Under the pieces are notes generated by a model. That model worked only from the letters and a program-made list of their open reading frames with translations. It made no database searches and was not told the DNA's origin. Shown here in pieces: positions 5,073 to 26,652 of a DNA stretch of 64,000 bases; within the stretch, counting starts at the first letter, position 1; every line of letters starts with the position of its first letter. The DNA comes from a virus: positions 1-64,000 of IMG/VR virus record IMGVR_UViG_3300032236_000747; one strand, given 5' to 3'. Made by a program: the position numbers and the translations under genes.

Positions 5073-5146
5073 GCGGGATTAGTTTAATGGTCAAACGAAA
5101 CCTTGCCAAGGTTTAGTTAGGAGTTCGATTCTCCTATCCCGCTCCA
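5073..5146 (+). tRNA. tRNA-Gly (GCC)
   Basis: Acceptor GCGGGAT/ATCCCGC as in the other tRNA-Gly, anticodon loop TTGCCAA (anticodon GCC), T loop TTCGATT, encoded CCA 5144-5146. The two Gly tRNAs share both ends and probably arose by duplication. Confidence 0.94.
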
Positions 5147-5158
5147 TTAAAGGTAAGT

Positions 5159-5578
5159 ATGAATAAGATTAAAAAAGCAATGTGGATGGCTTTGGGATTT
5201 TTATGTTTAGGCATAGCCTACATTGGTGTTGTAACGCCCGGTATTCCTTGGTCGACTCCCACAGTAGGAGCAGCGTATTGTTTTGCCAAAGGCAGCGAAC
5301 GCTGGCACAACTGGATTATGAATCATAAACTGTTTGGACCTTTCCTAAGAGGTTGGGCAGAGAAACGTGTATTCCCTATGTATGGTAAATGGGCTATGGT
5401 AGCAACCATGGATTGTAGTTTAATCATACTTTGGTTTACAACATATAACTGGAAACTAGTGGCCGGTGTAGGACTGGGAATGTTATTATGTGCTGTATGG
5501 GCTTTGCGCTATCCTAGCACAGAAGAAGAATATAATAGGCGCAAAGAAGCCGGCGAAAAGATTGGATGGTTTAAATGA
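5159..5578 (+). CDS. DUF454 (YbaN-like) inner-membrane protein
   Basis: 139 aa. Matches the YbaN/DUF454 pattern: an N-terminal hydrophobic helix (about 8-27), then TPGIPWSTPTVGAAYCFAKG (family: PVLPTTPF.LLAA.CFA..S.), WH.WI..H..FGP.LR.W, and two further hydrophobic segments (about 80-95, 98-115). A small integral membrane family of unknown function, unusual for a phage. AAAGG site upstream of ATG; overlaps the next gene by ATGA, forming a two-gene unit after the tRNA array. Confidence 0.85.
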   Translation: MNKIKKAMWMALGFLCLGIAYIGVVTPGIPWSTPTVGAAYCFAKGSERWHNWIMNHKLFGPFLRGWAEKRVFPMYGKWAMVATMDCSLIILWFTTYNWKLVAGVGLGMLLCAVWALRYPSTEEEYNRRKEAGEKIGWFK

Positions 5579-5934
5579 GATTAGAAGGCTTTGTAGAAAA
5601 AGGTTGGGGCTCAGAATTAATCTGGGCAACTAATGACAAGTATGCAGGCAAGTTGTTAAAATTTAATACTGGTGCAAAGTTCAGTATGCACTTTCATGCT
5701 GAGAAAGATGAAACTTGGTATGTGCTGAGTGGAAAATTTATTGTTCGATGGATTGATACCATTAATGCAGAGGTATATGAAAAAGAACTCAATGAAGGTA
5801 GTGTATGGCACAATCCTCCTTTATTACCACATCAAGTTGTATGTATTGAAGAAGGTACACTAATCGAAGTTAGCACACCAGATTCAGTTGAAGACAACTA
5901 TCGTGTAGCCAAAGGCGACTCTCAGAAAAGTTAA
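5575..5934 (+). CDS. single-domain cupin
   Basis: 119 aa. Contains the first cupin motif G33-x5-H39-x-H41-x4-E46-x6-G, and a second-strand region NPPLLPHQV, so the metal site looks intact. The fold resembles the cupin part of mannose-6-phosphate isomerase type II or small sugar-binding cupins. Substrate unknown. Starts within the DUF454 stop (ATGA). Its TAA overlaps the stop of the gene on the opposite strand. Confidence 0.8.
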   Translation: MRLEGFVEKGWGSELIWATNDKYAGKLLKFNTGAKFSMHFHAEKDETWYVLSGKFIVRWIDTINAEVYEKELNEGSVWHNPPLLPHQVVCIEEGTLIEVSTPDSVEDNYRVAKGDSQKS

Positions 5935-6119
5935 AGGTTGTTGACAAAGCGCAGAGCTTTGTTGATGTCAGTGAAATAACGTAATACTAGATCGCCATCG
6001 TAGATATCACGAACAATAATGCAGCACACACCGTTATGATATGAAAGGTGAAAGTGAGCACCGGAGGGTGTAAAGTTATCATAAGTTTTCACACTAATAT
6101 TTACCTCGCTATAGTTCAA
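5931..6119 (-). CDS. small hypothetical protein related to the 13581-13763 product
   Basis: 62 aa if started at a TTG on the reverse strand; an in-frame GTG nine codons later is an alternative, and the upstream start lies inside tRNA-Arg on the other strand. The C-terminus (FTDINKALRFVNNL) resembles DTDRKALKFVKDLL of the gene at 13581, supporting a real coding region. Convergent with the cupin gene; the two stops overlap. Confidence 0.5.
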   Translation of the reverse strand: MNYSEVNISVKTYDNFTPSGAHFHLSYHNGVCCIIVRDIYDGDLVLRYFTDINKALRFVNNL

Positions 6120-6179
6120 TGGATAGAACGAGGTCCTCCTAAGACTTAGGTGTAGGTTCGATTCCTACTGGTGAGACCA
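6105..6179 (+). tRNA. tRNA-Arg (CCT)
   Basis: Acceptor CTCGCTA/TGGTGAG, anticodon stem AGGTC/GACTT around CTCCTAA (anticodon CCT), T loop TTCGATT, discriminator A, encoded CCA 6177-6179. Confidence 0.92.
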
Positions 6180-6191
6180 TCAAATATTTGT

Positions 6192-6231
6192 CCCAGCCCG
6201 CTACAACATAGTTGCACGGTTGGGTTTTTTT
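6192..6231 (+). terminator. rho-independent terminator after tRNA-Arg
   Basis: Stem CCCAGCCCG (6192-6200) with CGGTTGGG (6217-6224) followed by seven T. Ends the tRNA/cupin unit; the next promoter begins four bases later. Confidence 0.85.
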
Positions 6232-6234
6232 AGG

Positions 6235-6263
6235 TTGACAACAGGTAAAACCTGTGCTATAAT
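6235..6263 (+). promoter_or_regulatory. consensus sigma70 promoter giving a leaderless message
   Basis: TTGACA 6235-6240, 17 bp, TATAAT 6258-6263. The spacer is a palindrome (ACAGGT-AAA-ACCTGT), a candidate operator. The expected +1 (seven bases past the -10 box) is 6270, the A of the ATG. Confidence 0.88.
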
Positions 6264-6269
6264 AATAAA

Positions 6270-6497
6270 ATGTATAAAGTAAAAGGTAAAATTGTAACAT
6301 TTGATGTAATGACATTAGATGAAGCTATGCACACAGCAAAGATAATGAACGAGTTTGTGACCATCACTGGTCCAGATTTTGAAGTGTGCGGTATGTTTGG
6401 TGTAGACAGCGTCAAAGACGGCAAGTGCCCAGATGGCGTTGACTACGATTGGAACAAGGCTAGCCGCATTGGCCGCGTAAAGAAAGAACGTGTATGA
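6270..6497 (+). CDS. hypothetical protein, 75 aa (leaderless)
   Basis: No ribosome binding site precedes the ATG, and the predicted transcription start falls on its first base. Small soluble protein with VTITGPDFEVCGMFGVDSV in the middle and a basic C-terminus; no family recognised. First gene of a run of coupled early genes (ATGA overlap with the next). Confidence 0.75.
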   Translation: MYKVKGKIVTFDVMTLDEAMHTAKIMNEFVTITGPDFEVCGMFGVDSVKDGKCPDGVDYDWNKASRIGRVKKERV

Positions 6498-6721
6498 AGT
6501 TAAATGAAATGATACAATGGGCAGGCACTGCCTGCTTCATGGTCATGTACAGTATAATGAGCTTCTTTCCGGAGTGCCATCCCTGGAATATTCTAGCAGG
6601 CACCGCAGGATCTATTCTGTATTTGATATGGAGTTTGCGTGTTGTGAATAAGCCACAAGTAATCACTAATCTAGTAGGGTTAACGATATGCTTGGTGGGG
6701 TTATATAAGGTGTGGGGATGA
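6494..6721 (+). CDS. small three-helix membrane protein, 75 aa
   Basis: Three hydrophobic segments (about 10-25, 33-48, 56-72) with W and P near the turns, like a half-sized PnuC/SWEET-type transporter. The product at 26645-26875 has the same size and pattern. Transport function is a guess. ATGA overlaps on both sides. Confidence 0.7.
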   Translation: MKLNEMIQWAGTACFMVMYSIMSFFPECHPWNILAGTAGSILYLIWSLRVVNKPQVITNLVGLTICLVGLYKVWG

Positions 6722-7071
6722 AGGTCATAATCGCAGGTGGCAGAGATATAACTGACTACGAGCTTGTGCTCAAGGCTGTGCTCAATGCCGGATTTGATAT
6801 TACTGCTGTAGTATCAGGCGCTGCTCGCGGTGTAGATACACTAGGTGAACGTTTTGCTAGAGAAGCAGGTTTAGAGTTATTCCAGTTTCCGGCAGAATGG
6901 GACAAGTATAGAAATGCTGCAGGTCCAATACGTAATAGAGTAATGGGCGATTTTGCAGATGCTCTTATAGCTGTATGGGATGGCAAGAGCAAGGGTACAA
7001 AAGATATGATCAACTATGCGACTGAAAAAGGTCTCAAAGTTTACGTGGAGAGAATAAATGCCGTGGATTGA
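6718..7071 (+). CDS. SLOG-superfamily protein (YspA/DUF2493-like)
   Basis: 117 aa. Starts at the second ATG (6718), which overlaps the previous stop. KVIIAGGRDITDY, then VVSGAARGVDTLGERFA, then FPAEWDKYRNAAGPIRNRVM and a final DALIAVWDGKSKGT match the DprA/LOG-like Rossmann fold of YspA proteins, which are thought to bind or process nucleotide ligands. SLOG proteins often serve as nucleotide-signal sensors, including in phage-host conflict systems; the ligand here is unknown. Confidence 0.85.
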   Translation: MKVIIAGGRDITDYELVLKAVLNAGFDITAVVSGAARGVDTLGERFAREAGLELFQFPAEWDKYRNAAGPIRNRVMGDFADALIAVWDGKSKGTKDMINYATEKGLKVYVERINAVD

Positions 7072-7525
7072 AAATGTAGCTGCTATAGATGTTTCGAGTG
7101 GTTTCCATCATGCCTGTGGTGAAAACTCTATGTTGATTAGTATTGCTGATACAGGCGGTTGGCGCCCAGAAGCAAAACACACATTCAAAGAACGTCATAA
7201 CTTCGAGTTTCTTGATATTGAAAAAGATGACTTTGCTCTAGACGAAGCAATGCGCTGTAGCGAAGCACAAGCCGCAGAACTTGTTCGTTTGTTGCAACAT
7301 GCTCTTGACAACCGTATGAACGTTGTAGTACATTGTACAGCAGGTTTGTGCCGCAGTGGAGCAGTAACCGAAGTTGGAGTTATGATGGGATTTGATGACA
7401 CCGAACGTTTCCGTAGCCCTAACTTACTGGTCAAGCATCGTATGATGAAGGCCTTGGGTTGGACCTACGATGAGAATGAAAAACCTAACATTGATGATTG
7501 GAGGAACTTTAAAAATGACTTTTAA
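7058..7525 (+). CDS. tyrosine/dual-specificity phosphatase-like protein
   Basis: 155 aa. Contains the cysteine phosphatase P loop HCTAGLCRS (C93, R99, S100), preceded by a helix and strand as in dual-specificity phosphatases. A general-acid Asp is likely among DIEKDD (53-58). Possible substrates are proteins, nucleotides or RNA 5' ends. Overlaps the SLOG gene by 14 bases. Confidence 0.8.
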   Translation: MPWIENVAAIDVSSGFHHACGENSMLISIADTGGWRPEAKHTFKERHNFEFLDIEKDDFALDEAMRCSEAQAAELVRLLQHALDNRMNVVVHCTAGLCRSGAVTEVGVMMGFDDTERFRSPNLLVKHRMMKALGWTYDENEKPNIDDWRNFKNDF

Positions 7526-7829
7526 GAAACTCAGCGAGGATGGTAAAATAGCTGTACTATATTCTCCTTCATTTGGCGCAGGATGGTTTACCTGGAATCA
7601 ATCATATCCAGAAATCATGTTTGACCCTAATATTGTAAAGTTTGTTGAAAAAGAAGAATGGGACAAGTGCAGGGCGTATGTAACACTGAAATATCCAGAT
7701 ATCTACGCCGGGGGTTTAAATGACTTAAAAGTCGAATGGATTCCCGAAGGAACATTGTTTAAAATACATGAATACGACGGCAATGAAAGTATTGAACTTA
7801 AAGAGTCAGATCAATGGTTTGTAGCATAA
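7515..7829 (+). CDS. hypothetical protein, 104 aa
   Basis: I chose the ATG at 7515, preceded by GGAGGAAC, over an earlier ATG deep inside the phosphatase gene. Soluble, with a C-terminal VEWIPEGTLFKIHEYDGNES segment that I associate with small conserved phage proteins of unknown function. Confidence 0.72.
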   Translation: MTFKKLSEDGKIAVLYSPSFGAGWFTWNQSYPEIMFDPNIVKFVEKEEWDKCRAYVTLKYPDIYAGGLNDLKVEWIPEGTLFKIHEYDGNESIELKESDQWFVA

Positions 7830-7838
7830 AGGTGTAAT

Positions 7839-8087
7839 ATGACTAAGGTAGTAGTAGAACATAAAGACAAGTTGGGTCGAGTATTAAATATCGGCGATTG
7901 TGTTGCCTATCCACAGAGTAATACTTTGTATGTTGGCACTATTAGAAAAACACATAACAAGATGATCACAGTCTCTCCAGTTGGACGAGACCATCGTTAC
8001 AATGGATCTAAAAAATATTCAAGTGACGTAGTTCTATTGGAAGGCCCTCAAGTAACATTATACTTGTTAAAATTAGAAACAAAATAA
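7839..8087 (+). CDS. hypothetical protein, 82 aa, small beta-barrel-like
   Basis: AAAGG-type site before the ATG. The pattern LGRVLNIGDCVAYPQ...LYVGTIRKTHNKMITVSPV looks like an SH3/KOW-like beta barrel, which would suit nucleic-acid binding. No exact family. Confidence 0.7.
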   Translation: MTKVVVEHKDKLGRVLNIGDCVAYPQSNTLYVGTIRKTHNKMITVSPVGRDHRYNGSKKYSSDVVLLEGPQVTLYLLKLETK

Positions 8088-8097
8088 AGGAAAGAAA

Positions 8098-8706
8098 ATG
8101 CCCGGAGTATTTTTAGTTAGTGACACGCACTTCGGACACATGGGTGTTTGTAAGTTTATGCGGTCTGATGGTGAAACAAAATTAAGGCCATGGGATAGTC
8201 CAGAAGAAATGGACGAAGCAATGGTCAAGGCTTGGAACGAACGTGTCAAGCCCAATGACAAGGTCTACCACTTAGGTGACGTTGTTATTAACCGCAAGGC
8301 TTTAAAGACATTGTCTCGCTTAAACGGCGACAAAGTTTTAATCAAAGGTAATCACGATATCTTTCGCTTAGAAGAATATACAGCTCACTTTCGTGATGTC
8401 CGTAGTTACCACGTAATGAACGGAATGATCTTAAGTCATATTCCTGTAAGCCCAGATTCGTTATACCGTTTTGGTACTAACATTCATGGTCATACTCACT
8501 CAAATCGTGTGAAGAAGATCAGAGGTGTTGATGTTAGAACTGGTGAACTCTTGTACAGCACTGAAAACGATGTTCGTTATCATTGTGTATGCGTAGAGCA
8601 AACCCCAAACTTTGCTCCAATCTTATTCGAAGACGTTATCAAACGCATTGAAGCAGAAGGCGGTACAGTTGGATTTAAGAACGGCGAGTTTAAAGGCGCT
8701 TCTTAA
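8098..8706 (+). CDS. calcineurin-like metallophosphoesterase
   Basis: 202 aa. All family motifs are present in order: SDTHFGH (D9, H11), YHLGDVVIN, KGNHD, LSHIP and HGHTHSN, giving a complete two-metal site. Related phage enzymes act on phosphodiesters or nucleotides; the substrate is not clear. Followed by a convergent gene whose stop overlaps its own. Confidence 0.9.
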   Translation: MPGVFLVSDTHFGHMGVCKFMRSDGETKLRPWDSPEEMDEAMVKAWNERVKPNDKVYHLGDVVINRKALKTLSRLNGDKVLIKGNHDIFRLEEYTAHFRDVRSYHVMNGMILSHIPVSPDSLYRFGTNIHGHTHSNRVKKIRGVDVRTGELLYSTENDVRYHCVCVEQTPNFAPILFEDVIKRIEAEGGTVGFKNGEFKGAS

Positions 8707-9341
8707 AGATTTTGGAGAACAGGTGCTAGTTCAGCAGGTTGCTTATCTTTGATAACAACGGGCGTGTAATCATAGCTAGCCATCCATCCCCAACTTTCTT
8801 GTTTACGTAGATCGCTTAGATCAGCGCGGCGACGAACGGCCCAGGGTGAGGCTCCATTACTAATATGGAACCTTGCTACTGGGTCTTTTTTTGCGACTAA
8901 AAATTCTTGTATTTCTTCAATGCCCGGTTGCTTGTTAAACTTAGAACGCAGACTAGGTATCGGGCTCAAAGTTATAAACTTACCTAATGTTGGGAATCGA
9001 TTGCGTAGATCTTCAGCAGCACCGTAGATTAGTTCACGAACACCGCCCTTGACTGACTCGCTGTCCGGAAGGCGGAATACGCTGTAGAACACAGCATATA
9101 AAAATGGATCAGTTTGTTCTTTTTTATTCCAAAGACTTTTTGCTGTCATTGGTGCACTAGCAGTTAGCGCAACTTGTAGTATCGCCACAGGCCTATCGTT
9201 ATCTGTCATTACATAGATAATGCGATCATTACCAAATCTACGAACTAGGTTTTTCTTTTCGTCGATTGGATGTACCGGATCATGCTTTATCAGCTCAGCC
9301 CAGTGCGTATTAAATTCTGGCTGTAAATTGCTGATGATCAT
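8703..9341 (-). CDS. malonyl-CoA decarboxylase-like (GNAT-fold) protein
   Basis: 212 aa. The C-terminal two thirds match the catalytic domain of malonyl-CoA decarboxylase: AVFYSVF, RFPTLGKFITLSPIPS, DPVARFHISNGA (with the family's conserved His) and the closing RADLSDLRKQESWGWM..Y.Y. The N-terminal helical domain of the roughly 450-aa enzyme is absent. It could decarboxylate malonyl-CoA or have become an acyltransferase. Reverse strand; AAGGAA site; exact late promoter TATAAATA about 30 bases upstream. Start chosen at the only well-placed ATG. Confidence 0.72.
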   Translation of the reverse strand: MIISNLQPEFNTHWAELIKHDPVHPIDEKKNLVRRFGNDRIIYVMTDNDRPVAILQVALTASAPMTAKSLWNKKEQTDPFLYAVFYSVFRLPDSESVKGGVRELIYGAAEDLRNRFPTLGKFITLSPIPSLRSKFNKQPGIEEIQEFLVAKKDPVARFHISNGASPWAVRRRADLSDLRKQESWGWMASYDYTPVVIKDKQPAELAPVLQNL

Positions 9342-9362
9342 GGTATTTCCTTACATTTTGTA

Positions 9363-9370
9363 TATTTATA
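9363..9370 (-). promoter_or_regulatory. T4-type late promoter (TATAAATA)
   Basis: Exact match to the T4 late consensus on the reverse strand, about 30 bases upstream of the malonyl-CoA-decarboxylase-like gene. Lies back to back with the sigma70 promoter that serves the forward RNA genes. Confidence 0.7.
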
Positions 9371-9386
9371 ATGATTGCCGTTTTAT

Positions 9387-9415
9387 TTGCATATTATGAT
9401 AAATTATGTTATAAT
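9387..9415 (+). promoter_or_regulatory. sigma70-type promoter for the tRNA-like RNA
   Basis: TTGCAT 9387-9392, 17 bp, TATAAT 9410-9415. Predicted +1 is 9422, exactly the first base of the RNA, so no 5' processing would be needed. Confidence 0.75.
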
Positions 9416-9421
9416 AGTTAC

Positions 9422-9524
9422 GTGGCTGTAAGCGAACGGCAGAGCTCCGAGATACTTGTATCCCGGGAATGGTTGCAGACATAGTCGCCGCACCTTGTAG
9501 GTTCAAGTCCTACCAGCCACACCA
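9422..9524 (+). ncRNA. tRNA-like RNA lacking an anticodon loop
   Basis: 103 bases. Acceptor stem GTGGCTG/CAGCCAC (7 bp perfect), D-arm-like AGC/GCT with GG in the loop, T arm GTAGG-TTCAAGT-CCTAC, discriminator A and encoded CCA 9522-9524. Where the anticodon arm should be there is a 9-bp hairpin (CCGAGATAC/GTATCCCGG, one mismatch) with essentially no loop, then a second irregular hairpin. I cannot assign an anticodon. Either a tRNA mimic or a tRNA with a very unusual fold; Thr and Arg tRNAs follow. Confidence 0.6.
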
Positions 9525-9546
9525 AATTTTACAGTAAATAGAAAGC

Positions 9547-9621
9547 GCCCTTGTAGCTCACTGGCAGAGCACCCGCCTTGTAAGCGGTAGGCAGTTAGTT
9601 CGATTCTAACCTGGGGCACCA
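9547..9621 (+). tRNA. tRNA-Thr (TGT)
   Basis: Acceptor GCCCTTG/CTGGGGC with one mismatch, D arm GCTC/GAGC, anticodon loop CTTGTAA (anticodon TGT), T loop TTCGATT, encoded CCA 9619-9621. Confidence 0.9.
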
Positions 9622-9628
9622 AATACAT

Positions 9629-9703
9629 CGACCCTTAGTTCAATGGATAGAATGCTGTGTTCCGATCGCAGCGATAGGGGTTCGATTCCTCTAGGGTCGG
9701 CCA
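9629..9703 (+). tRNA. tRNA-Arg (CCG)
   Basis: Acceptor CGACCCT/AGGGTCG, anticodon loop TTCCGAT (anticodon CCG), T loop TTCGATT, discriminator G, encoded CCA 9701-9703. Confidence 0.92.
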
Positions 9704-25686: not shown

Positions 25687-26019
25687 ATGACCAAAATTAG
25701 TAAAAATCTTAATAAACAAATAAGAAGTTGGCAGATTTATTCTGTCATTGCTCCTGCTGTCTTTGTATTAGTCTCCGGACTATTGTATGTGTGGTATGGT
25801 ATTCCTTTTCAAAGTATATTCTTCTCAGGTGTTGTCATCCTATGTATAACCTGCATAGCATGGTGGCATTGGAGTTTATTCACTATGCTAACCATGCTTC
25901 AAATAATGAAAGACACAGACGACCACTTTGAACTAGTAACCGAACAACTTGATGATCTAAGAACTACGTTCGGTAAACCGTCTCTGCGTTTAATCAAATC
26001 TGTTGACAAAGATCAATAA
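25687..26019 (+). CDS. two-helix membrane protein, 110 aa
   Basis: Two hydrophobic segments (about 18-37 and 41-60), the second very aromatic (AWWHWSLF), then an acidic soluble tail. Unknown; the position after a fibre gene does not define a role. Confidence 0.7.
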   Translation: MTKISKNLNKQIRSWQIYSVIAPAVFVLVSGLLYVWYGIPFQSIFFSGVVILCITCIAWWHWSLFTMLTMLQIMKDTDDHFELVTEQLDDLRTTFGKPSLRLIKSVDKDQ

Positions 26020-26030
26020 CTCTGTATAAT
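26003..26030 (+). promoter_or_regulatory. sigma70-type promoter for the QueD-like gene
   Basis: TTGACA 26003-26008, 16 bp, TATAAT 26025-26030, predicted start 26037, giving a 70-base leader. Confidence 0.82.
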
Positions 26031-26038
26031 TAAAAGAT

Positions 26039-26076
26039 AGCGGTCTTGGCTTCATCCCGCTTTATAAACTCTGCCA
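26039..26076 (+). promoter_or_regulatory. candidate preQ1-I riboswitch
   Basis: P1 stem AGCGG (26039-26043)/CCGCT (26057-26061). The loop holds TGGC (26047-26050), which can pair with GCCA (26073-26076) in the A-rich 3' tail, forming the H-type pseudoknot of preQ1-I aptamers, here with a longer tail between. Directly followed by a hairpin CCTATG/CATAGG (26078-26097) that hides the AGGAGA ribosome site. Gene context (QueD-like) fits. Sequence conservation outside the fold is loose. Confidence 0.5.
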
Positions 26077-26106
26077 GCCTATGCTAAACAACATAGGAGA
26101 AAAAGC

Positions 26107-26652
26107 ATGTCAGACGATTTTAACTACCACGATACAGACCACAGACAATATATCCGTCATCCGGTCCAATACAAGTACACAAGTACCAAAGAGTATCACG
26201 ACGCATTTCCATGTGCGTATAGACAGTGGAGAGCCGATAGCCATTGTAACTTGATTCATGGTTATAGTTTTTCAATGAAGTTCTATTTTGGCACAGATGA
26301 TCTTGATGTTCGTAACTGGGCCGCAGACTACGGCGGACTTAAAGAATTGAAGAAGTTATTAGAGGATATGTTCGATCACACGTTGATTGTGGCACAAGAT
26401 GATCCTGAAATGGAAACATTCAAACTATTACAAGAAAAGAAAATGGCTAAGATTGTTGTACTTCCACGATTAGGTTGCGAGAGTTTAGCAGATATGCTTT
26501 ACAAGTATATCAATGGCGTTTATATTCCAGAGATGTGGGGCGAAGGAGAAAGCAAACGTCTATGGTGCTATCGCGTAGAAGTTCGTGAAACACAATCAAA
26601 CATGGCTTTTAGAGAAGGTCATCGTGAATGGAAAGAGGACTTGTTTGCGTAA
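26107..26652 (+). CDS. QueD/6-pyruvoyl-tetrahydropterin synthase-like protein
   Basis: 181 aa. SHCNLIHGYSF (45-55) aligns with the HKCGRLHGHSF of QueD: catalytic Cys C47 and zinc His H51 retained, second His replaced by Tyr. DYGGLKELKKLL, FDHTLI and VRETQSN match later family motifs (substrate Glu). The first zinc His appears to be Tyr in FPCAYRQW. QueD makes carboxytetrahydropterin on the way to preQ0/queuosine; phages use this route for 7-deazaguanine DNA. No other Que/Dpd gene is in this window, so activity is uncertain. Confidence 0.75.
   Translation: MSDDFNYHDTDHRQYIRHPVQYKYTSTKEYHDAFPCAYRQWRADSHCNLIHGYSFSMKFYFGTDDLDVRNWAADYGGLKELKKLLEDMFDHTLIVAQDDPEMETFKLLQEKKMAKIVVLPRLGCESLADMLYKYINGVYIPEMWGEGESKRLWCYRVEVRETQSNMAFREGHREWKEDLFA

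Follow-up and report, generated by a model that had tools for sequence, protein, structure and literature searches.

The 5' leader of a queD mRNA in a T4-like jumbo phage was found to contain a conserved RNA pseudoknot, which is probably a metabolite-sensing riboswitch. The leader occupies positions 26037-26106 of the window, the whole stretch of 64,000 nucleotides analysed here (positions 1-64,000 of IMG/VR record IMGVR_UViG_3300032236_000747). In our overall reading, to which we give a probability of about 0.6, a pseudoknot aptamer would be coupled to a translational platform, sense a compound of the 7-deazaguanine/pterin pathway and turn the gene on. That these positions form a regulatory leader RNA is close to certain, and if the leader switches, the inferred direction is likely to be ON. 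The most specific form of the proposal stands at even odds: an undescribed, virus-specific riboswitch class, in which an H-type pseudoknot of 41-47 nt would recognise a 7-deazaguanine/pterin intermediate and switch QueD on by capturing a strand in P2.

The virus record that holds the window is 354,680 bases long and encodes a T4-type capsid protein (Gp23, 1.3e-80). Thirteen tRNA genes were observed near the start of the window, within its first 10 kb (307-9703). The preliminary description had placed the element before a phage QueD-like gene, and profile matches bear this out: the encoded protein matched PF01242 (9.8e-16) and phrog_2389 (2.1e-37), and its match to TIGR03367 (4.4e-8) was under the cut-off of that model. 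Because the promoter ends at 26030, transcription is expected to start near 26037, at the foot of P1, and P1 would then lie at the extreme 5' end of the transcript (Table 1). In related leaders, the sigma70 promoter of the window is replaced by a TAAATA box resembling T4 late promoters, and others have sigma70-like boxes. Across 166 distinct leaders, the TAAATA box was located just upstream of P1 in 98, versus 6.6 in shuffled sequences, a count that may be inflated by TAA stop codons. Promoters placed before one conserved RNA appear to be exchanged among leaders, with the RNA start kept.

Table 1 Features of the queD leader and its surroundings in the window
Feature	Sequence	Position	Strand	Basis or remark
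Sigma70-type promoter	TTGACA-16-TATAAT	26003-26030	+	12/12 consensus matches
P1, 5' strand	AGCGG	26039-26043	+	all alignment cells paired; 3/5 pairs changed on both sides
L1	U C U (U)	26044-26047	+	alignment columns 6-8; positions 2 and 3 (C, U) invariant, first U/C/A
P2, 5' strand	GGCU	26048-26051	+	covariation-backed register
Segment between P2 5' strand and P1 3' strand	UCAUC	26052-26056	+	invariant U and C, then R pairing with Y26072; invariant C before P1'
P1, 3' strand	CCGCU	26057-26061	+	sequence and alignment
L3	nUAnAAAyUCUGC (conserved)	26062-26074	+	alignment; UG pairs with CA of UCA, extending P2
P2, 3' strand	AGCC	26076-26079	+	CC shared with the ribosome-site hairpin as its first two bases
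Ribosome-site hairpin	CCUAUG/CAUAGG	26078-26097	+	arms 26078-26083 and 26092-26097; -6.8 kcal/mol
Shine-Dalgarno sequence	AGGAG	26095-26099	+	read from the sequence
QueD-like gene, PTPS family, 181 aa		26107-26652	+	PF01242, phrog_2389, TIGR03367; ATG at 26107

The single-sequence fold of the window leader was no better than that of shuffled sequences (z = 0.09), and the case therefore rests on comparison. In alignment A1, 90.9% of the paired cells were filled by pairs, versus 74.6% after shuffling and 31-50% when the partner strand was slid; the covariation score was 0.387, versus 0.119 for shuffled and 0.012-0.073 for slid partner strands, and 8 of the 11 pairs showed changes on both sides. 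The P1 hairpin reported earlier (AGCGG/CCGCT) is indeed present and was 100% paired across the alignment, with double changes, and P2 contained five covarying pairs. In the structure-aware alignment, the top covarying columns were 2-31 and 3-30 in P1 and 21-47, 20-48 and 19-49 in P2, together with 24-44. The last of these is the R-Y pair (R of UCAUC with Y26072), A-U in 135 leaders and G-C in four. Related sequences are over-weighted in such pair counts, so changes were also counted on the QueD tree as a safeguard, though this tree may differ from that of the leader: pair states changed 18 times at 2-31, 10 times at 3-30 and four times at 24-44, the four G-C leaders being far enough apart on the tree to require four changes. 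These results confirm that the leader pseudoknot conserved before queD is a real RNA element.

The register of P2 differs from the one first proposed. A loop-tail pseudoknot does exist and is backed by covariation, but the register TGGC/GCCA given in the preliminary description was paired in only 48.4% of P2 cells on alignment A1, versus 83.3% for GGCU/AGCC, which also beat its neighbouring registers in permutation tests. Both can form in the window, whose P2 is shifted by one base relative to most relatives; nearest-neighbour rules give -4.1 kcal/mol for TGGC/GCCA (26047-26050 with 26073-26076) versus a weak -2.3 kcal/mol for GGCU/AGCC, a value for the helix only. In the window, P2 is extended by C26053-G26073 and A26054-U26072, and the consensus is GGCN-U-CR/YGC-NGCC with an invariant U.C mismatch inside. 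The invariant loop bases are C7, U8, U22, C23, C27, A38, A40, U42, C43, G45 and C46, joined by G4 and G5 in P1, an invariance that is partly built in, since some of these bases were fixed in the pattern used for searching and in the expression used for parsing. The same invariant bases were found at 79 loci retrieved through the gene. As would be expected of a binding pocket, conserved bases are placed in the loops. The comparison as a whole shows, at the level of aligned sequences, P1, P2 with its C-G and R-Y extension, the invariant bases and a P2 3' strand complementary to the ribosome site.

We then have the distribution of the motif. Close QueD relatives are encoded at 80 viral loci, nearly all with the same leader. 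A gene-blind DNA pattern of the core bases, 17 of them fixed and the variable P1 positions left open, matched at least 120 stretches in the viral set, and the full motif was present in 118 of the matches listed. In bacterial and archaeal genomes totalling 257 Gb, the same pattern gave 38 matches, versus roughly 30 expected by base counting. Including the window and the 118 found by the gene-blind pattern, there are at least 198 motif loci, 139 of them distinct among those listed, and among the listed matches the motif lies directly before a QueD-like gene at 192 of the 197 loci other than the window. At one locus (L060:2487-3300) it precedes a canonical QueD gene followed in tandem by a QueD-like one, at two others (L135 and L146) another gene intervenes and QueD follows 455 and 845 nt on, and at L157 the motif is at a contig end. 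At L178 (4831 onward), a full motif stands before a non-QueD gene with no QueD within 4 kb; this gene is a possible second target.

Each of 21 phage records, that of the window and 20 others, carries one good copy of the motif; second, weaker model matches in four sister phages (L271, L272, L274 and L280) lacked an intact motif and were discounted as chance matches. Only one bacterial match is placed before a QueD-like gene and is also recognised by the model, an identical stretch retrieved twice (L222/L235) from a Rickettsiales MAG. This marine relative (L235:4928-4974, 31.7 bits) has a P2 of GACUU/AAGUC and a different platform, in which UAUACGA, upstream of P1, has its complement UCGUAUA next to the Shine-Dalgarno sequence. 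The other 36 genome matches, including a repeated Magnetococcales sequence, were without a QueD-like gene and were set aside. Two consensus leaders, compared with isolated phages by BLAST, gave short chance matches only, and the motif was absent from the six isolate-phage QueD loci examined. So far, the motif has been found almost only in uncultivated T4-like jumbo phages.

Two types of expression platform were observed. In type A, as in the window, a hairpin on the Shine-Dalgarno sequence begins with the CC of the P2 3' strand; such a hairpin hiding the ribosome site had been described before and is present, CCTATG/CATAGG covering the first three bases of AGGAG. In type B, the P2 3' strand reads GYCAUC, and its partner is GAUGGC at the start codon. 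In both types, P2 and the cover of the ribosome site compete for one strand. When the first 5 nt after UCUGC were sequestered, the mean unpaired probability of the Shine-Dalgarno sequence in 136 leaders rose from 0.30 to 0.74, with a rise of more than 0.2 in 84% of them, and in the window it rose from 0.26 to 0.94. The duplex of the P2 3' strand with the ribosome site averaged -7.0 kcal/mol, versus -3.6 with letters shuffled and -5.8 with partners exchanged among leaders, the latter a modest excess only.

The platform type switches about 30 times on the QueD tree, and therefore either platforms turn over beside a conserved aptamer or leaders are swapped; these changes suggest an exchange of leaders or platforms. 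With a single strand shared by P2 and the ribosome-site cover, an ON switch is predicted. The compact H-type aptamer (P1 and P2), coupled to its translational platform, would sense a small molecule of the 7-deazaguanine/pterin pathway. With ligand bound, P2 would hold the anti-ribosome-site strand, the Shine-Dalgarno sequence would be free and QueD would be made; without ligand, the strand would fold onto the Shine-Dalgarno sequence or the start codon and block translation. In the window, however, the unpaired probability of the start codon AUG drops from 0.89 to 0.09 once the Shine-Dalgarno sequence is freed, as AUGCU pairs with AGCAU, and in leaders ending AGCATG weak start-codon pairing is likewise permitted; the direction is therefore blurred and is one that we infer. 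Since the known riboswitches of biosynthetic genes are mostly OFF switches, activation of such a gene by its leader would be out of the ordinary and would call for a signal that resembles a substrate or lies upstream.

The genes of the phage bear on the likely ligand. FolE and a relative of QueE are encoded in the same record outside the window and far from queD (85278-85811 and 88010-88852 of the record), and at 76 loci a QueE-like gene is no more than 5 kb away from the motif. FolE, QueD and QueE act on the route from GTP to preQ0, in which 7-carboxy-7-deazaguanine precedes the QueC step (PMC6884629), and this pathway or its immediate surroundings are therefore the most likely source of the ligand. 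The link to the 7-deazaguanine pathway drawn in the preliminary description is supported. QueC was not detected in the phage of the window, nor was TGT/DpdA by PF01702; in 13 sister phages, PF01702 likewise found no TGT/DpdA, and QueC matches were weak at most. With FolE and QueE but no detectable QueC or TGT/DpdA, the use that the phage makes of a 7-deazaguanine product is unexplained. In the QueD-like proteins of the window and of L285, L287, L288 and L289, HGY was found in place of the HGH of the canonical QueD in L060; among the phage QueD-like proteins Y or F replaces the first His, and their metal site, judged from these residues, may be rebuilt. Such QueD-like genes adjoin queC in the isolates Knedl and Motura, with folE and a TGT gene alongside as well in Knedl.

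The main rival to a metabolite-sensing leader is that a protein which represses or activates translation, for example QueD itself or a phage RNA-binding protein, uses the pseudoknot as its operator. The phage is T4-like, as its Gp23 indicates, the motif precedes one gene only, as an autogenous operator would, and invariant single-stranded bases suit protein contacts as well as a ligand pocket. Yet the motif also precedes canonical QueD in L060 and, with a gene between, QueD in L135 and L146, the distant QueD-like proteins of isolate phages are without the element, and a 41-nt aptamer whose pseudoknot core is invariant and whose platform works by strand swapping is what small-molecule switches typically show, which makes the operator rather unlikely.

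A divergent preQ1-I riboswitch missed by the Rfam model and sensing preQ1 or preQ0 is distinctly unlikely, and here the preliminary description, which had called the element preQ1-I-like, held in part. The preQ1-I features compared here were taken from PMC11625349. Both elements belong with a 7-deazaguanine pathway gene and have an H-type pseudoknot of P1 and P2 with covariation in both helices, a 5-bp P1 with a G-C closing pair (its G invariant in the phage leaders), an A-rich L3 and a translational platform. They also share a C just before P1', the place of the preQ1 specificity base (column 27, C in 139/139, partly fixed by the search pattern and regular expression). The Infernal comparison with the PreQ1 family named in that description as a check, however, gave no match, which is the first half of what that description would take as a refutation: RF00522 was not found at 26037-26106 (E <= 10) or in seven relatives, and no Rfam family matched the window site at E <= 10 or at the gathering threshold. 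The ligand-reading U6 of preQ1-I is not kept (T in 63, C in 57 and A in 19 of 139 leaders). The A-run of the phage L3 (UAnAAA) does not abut P2, the conserved yUCYGC lying between, and in L2, C and R form pairs with bases of L3 (C-G and R-Y). The phage element is longer (41-47 versus about 34 nt) and phage-restricted, and its P2 3' strand is anti-Shine-Dalgarno, whereas that of translational preQ1-I switches holds Shine-Dalgarno bases. The predicted ON logic is the reverse of that of preQ1 switches. By these comparisons of sequence and pairing, the leader is not a member of preQ1-I or another known class.

It is very unlikely that the structure works without a ligand, as a 5' mRNA stabiliser, an RNA thermometer or a fixed translation brake. 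Such a role would suit the 5' hairpin, which is stable and placed where transcripts are expected to start, and the second hairpin on the Shine-Dalgarno sequence, but a fixed brake or 5' hairpin would have no need of invariant loop bases, a covarying pseudoknot or a strand with two partners, and would leave the tie to a single gene family unexplained. Chance hairpins in an intergenic spacer, with which the ordinary fold energy of the window agrees, are already refuted by the covariation over 139 distinct leaders. The contrast between full motifs in nearly every listed viral match and near-background counts in cellular genomes also speaks against them, and their probability is negligible.

Riboswitches have been called rare in phages (PMC9004378). 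In the literature searched, which included few subscription journals so that an earlier description is possible, no queD-linked or phage preQ1 switch like this motif was found. If confirmed, the motif would be a class of riboswitch that is widespread in jumbo phages and sits on an auxiliary metabolic gene from the 7-deazaguanine pathway. Its logic, reversed relative to the preQ1 classes, bears on how phages time base or nucleotide modification against the queuosine pathway of the host. The small aptamer, with about 140 natural variants and two platform types, is directly testable.

Leader pseudoknots acting on translation have a precedent in T4, where the gene 32 protein uses one to repress its own mRNA. 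The queD leader shares with it a T4-like phage setting and, as predicted, action on translation, but the gene 32 pseudoknot binds a protein. Glutamine and psbA-associated riboswitches borne by phages (PMC9004378) are likewise riboswitch-like leaders carried by phages, but belong to other RNA families and other genes. Like the preQ1-II and preQ1-III classes, the phage leader would combine the pathway with pseudoknot control of translation; those classes have larger pseudoknots of the HL-out type, located upstream of queT-type transporters (PMC11625349), and their models (RF01054 and RF02680) matched neither the site nor seven relatives, which sets the small element before queD apart from them.
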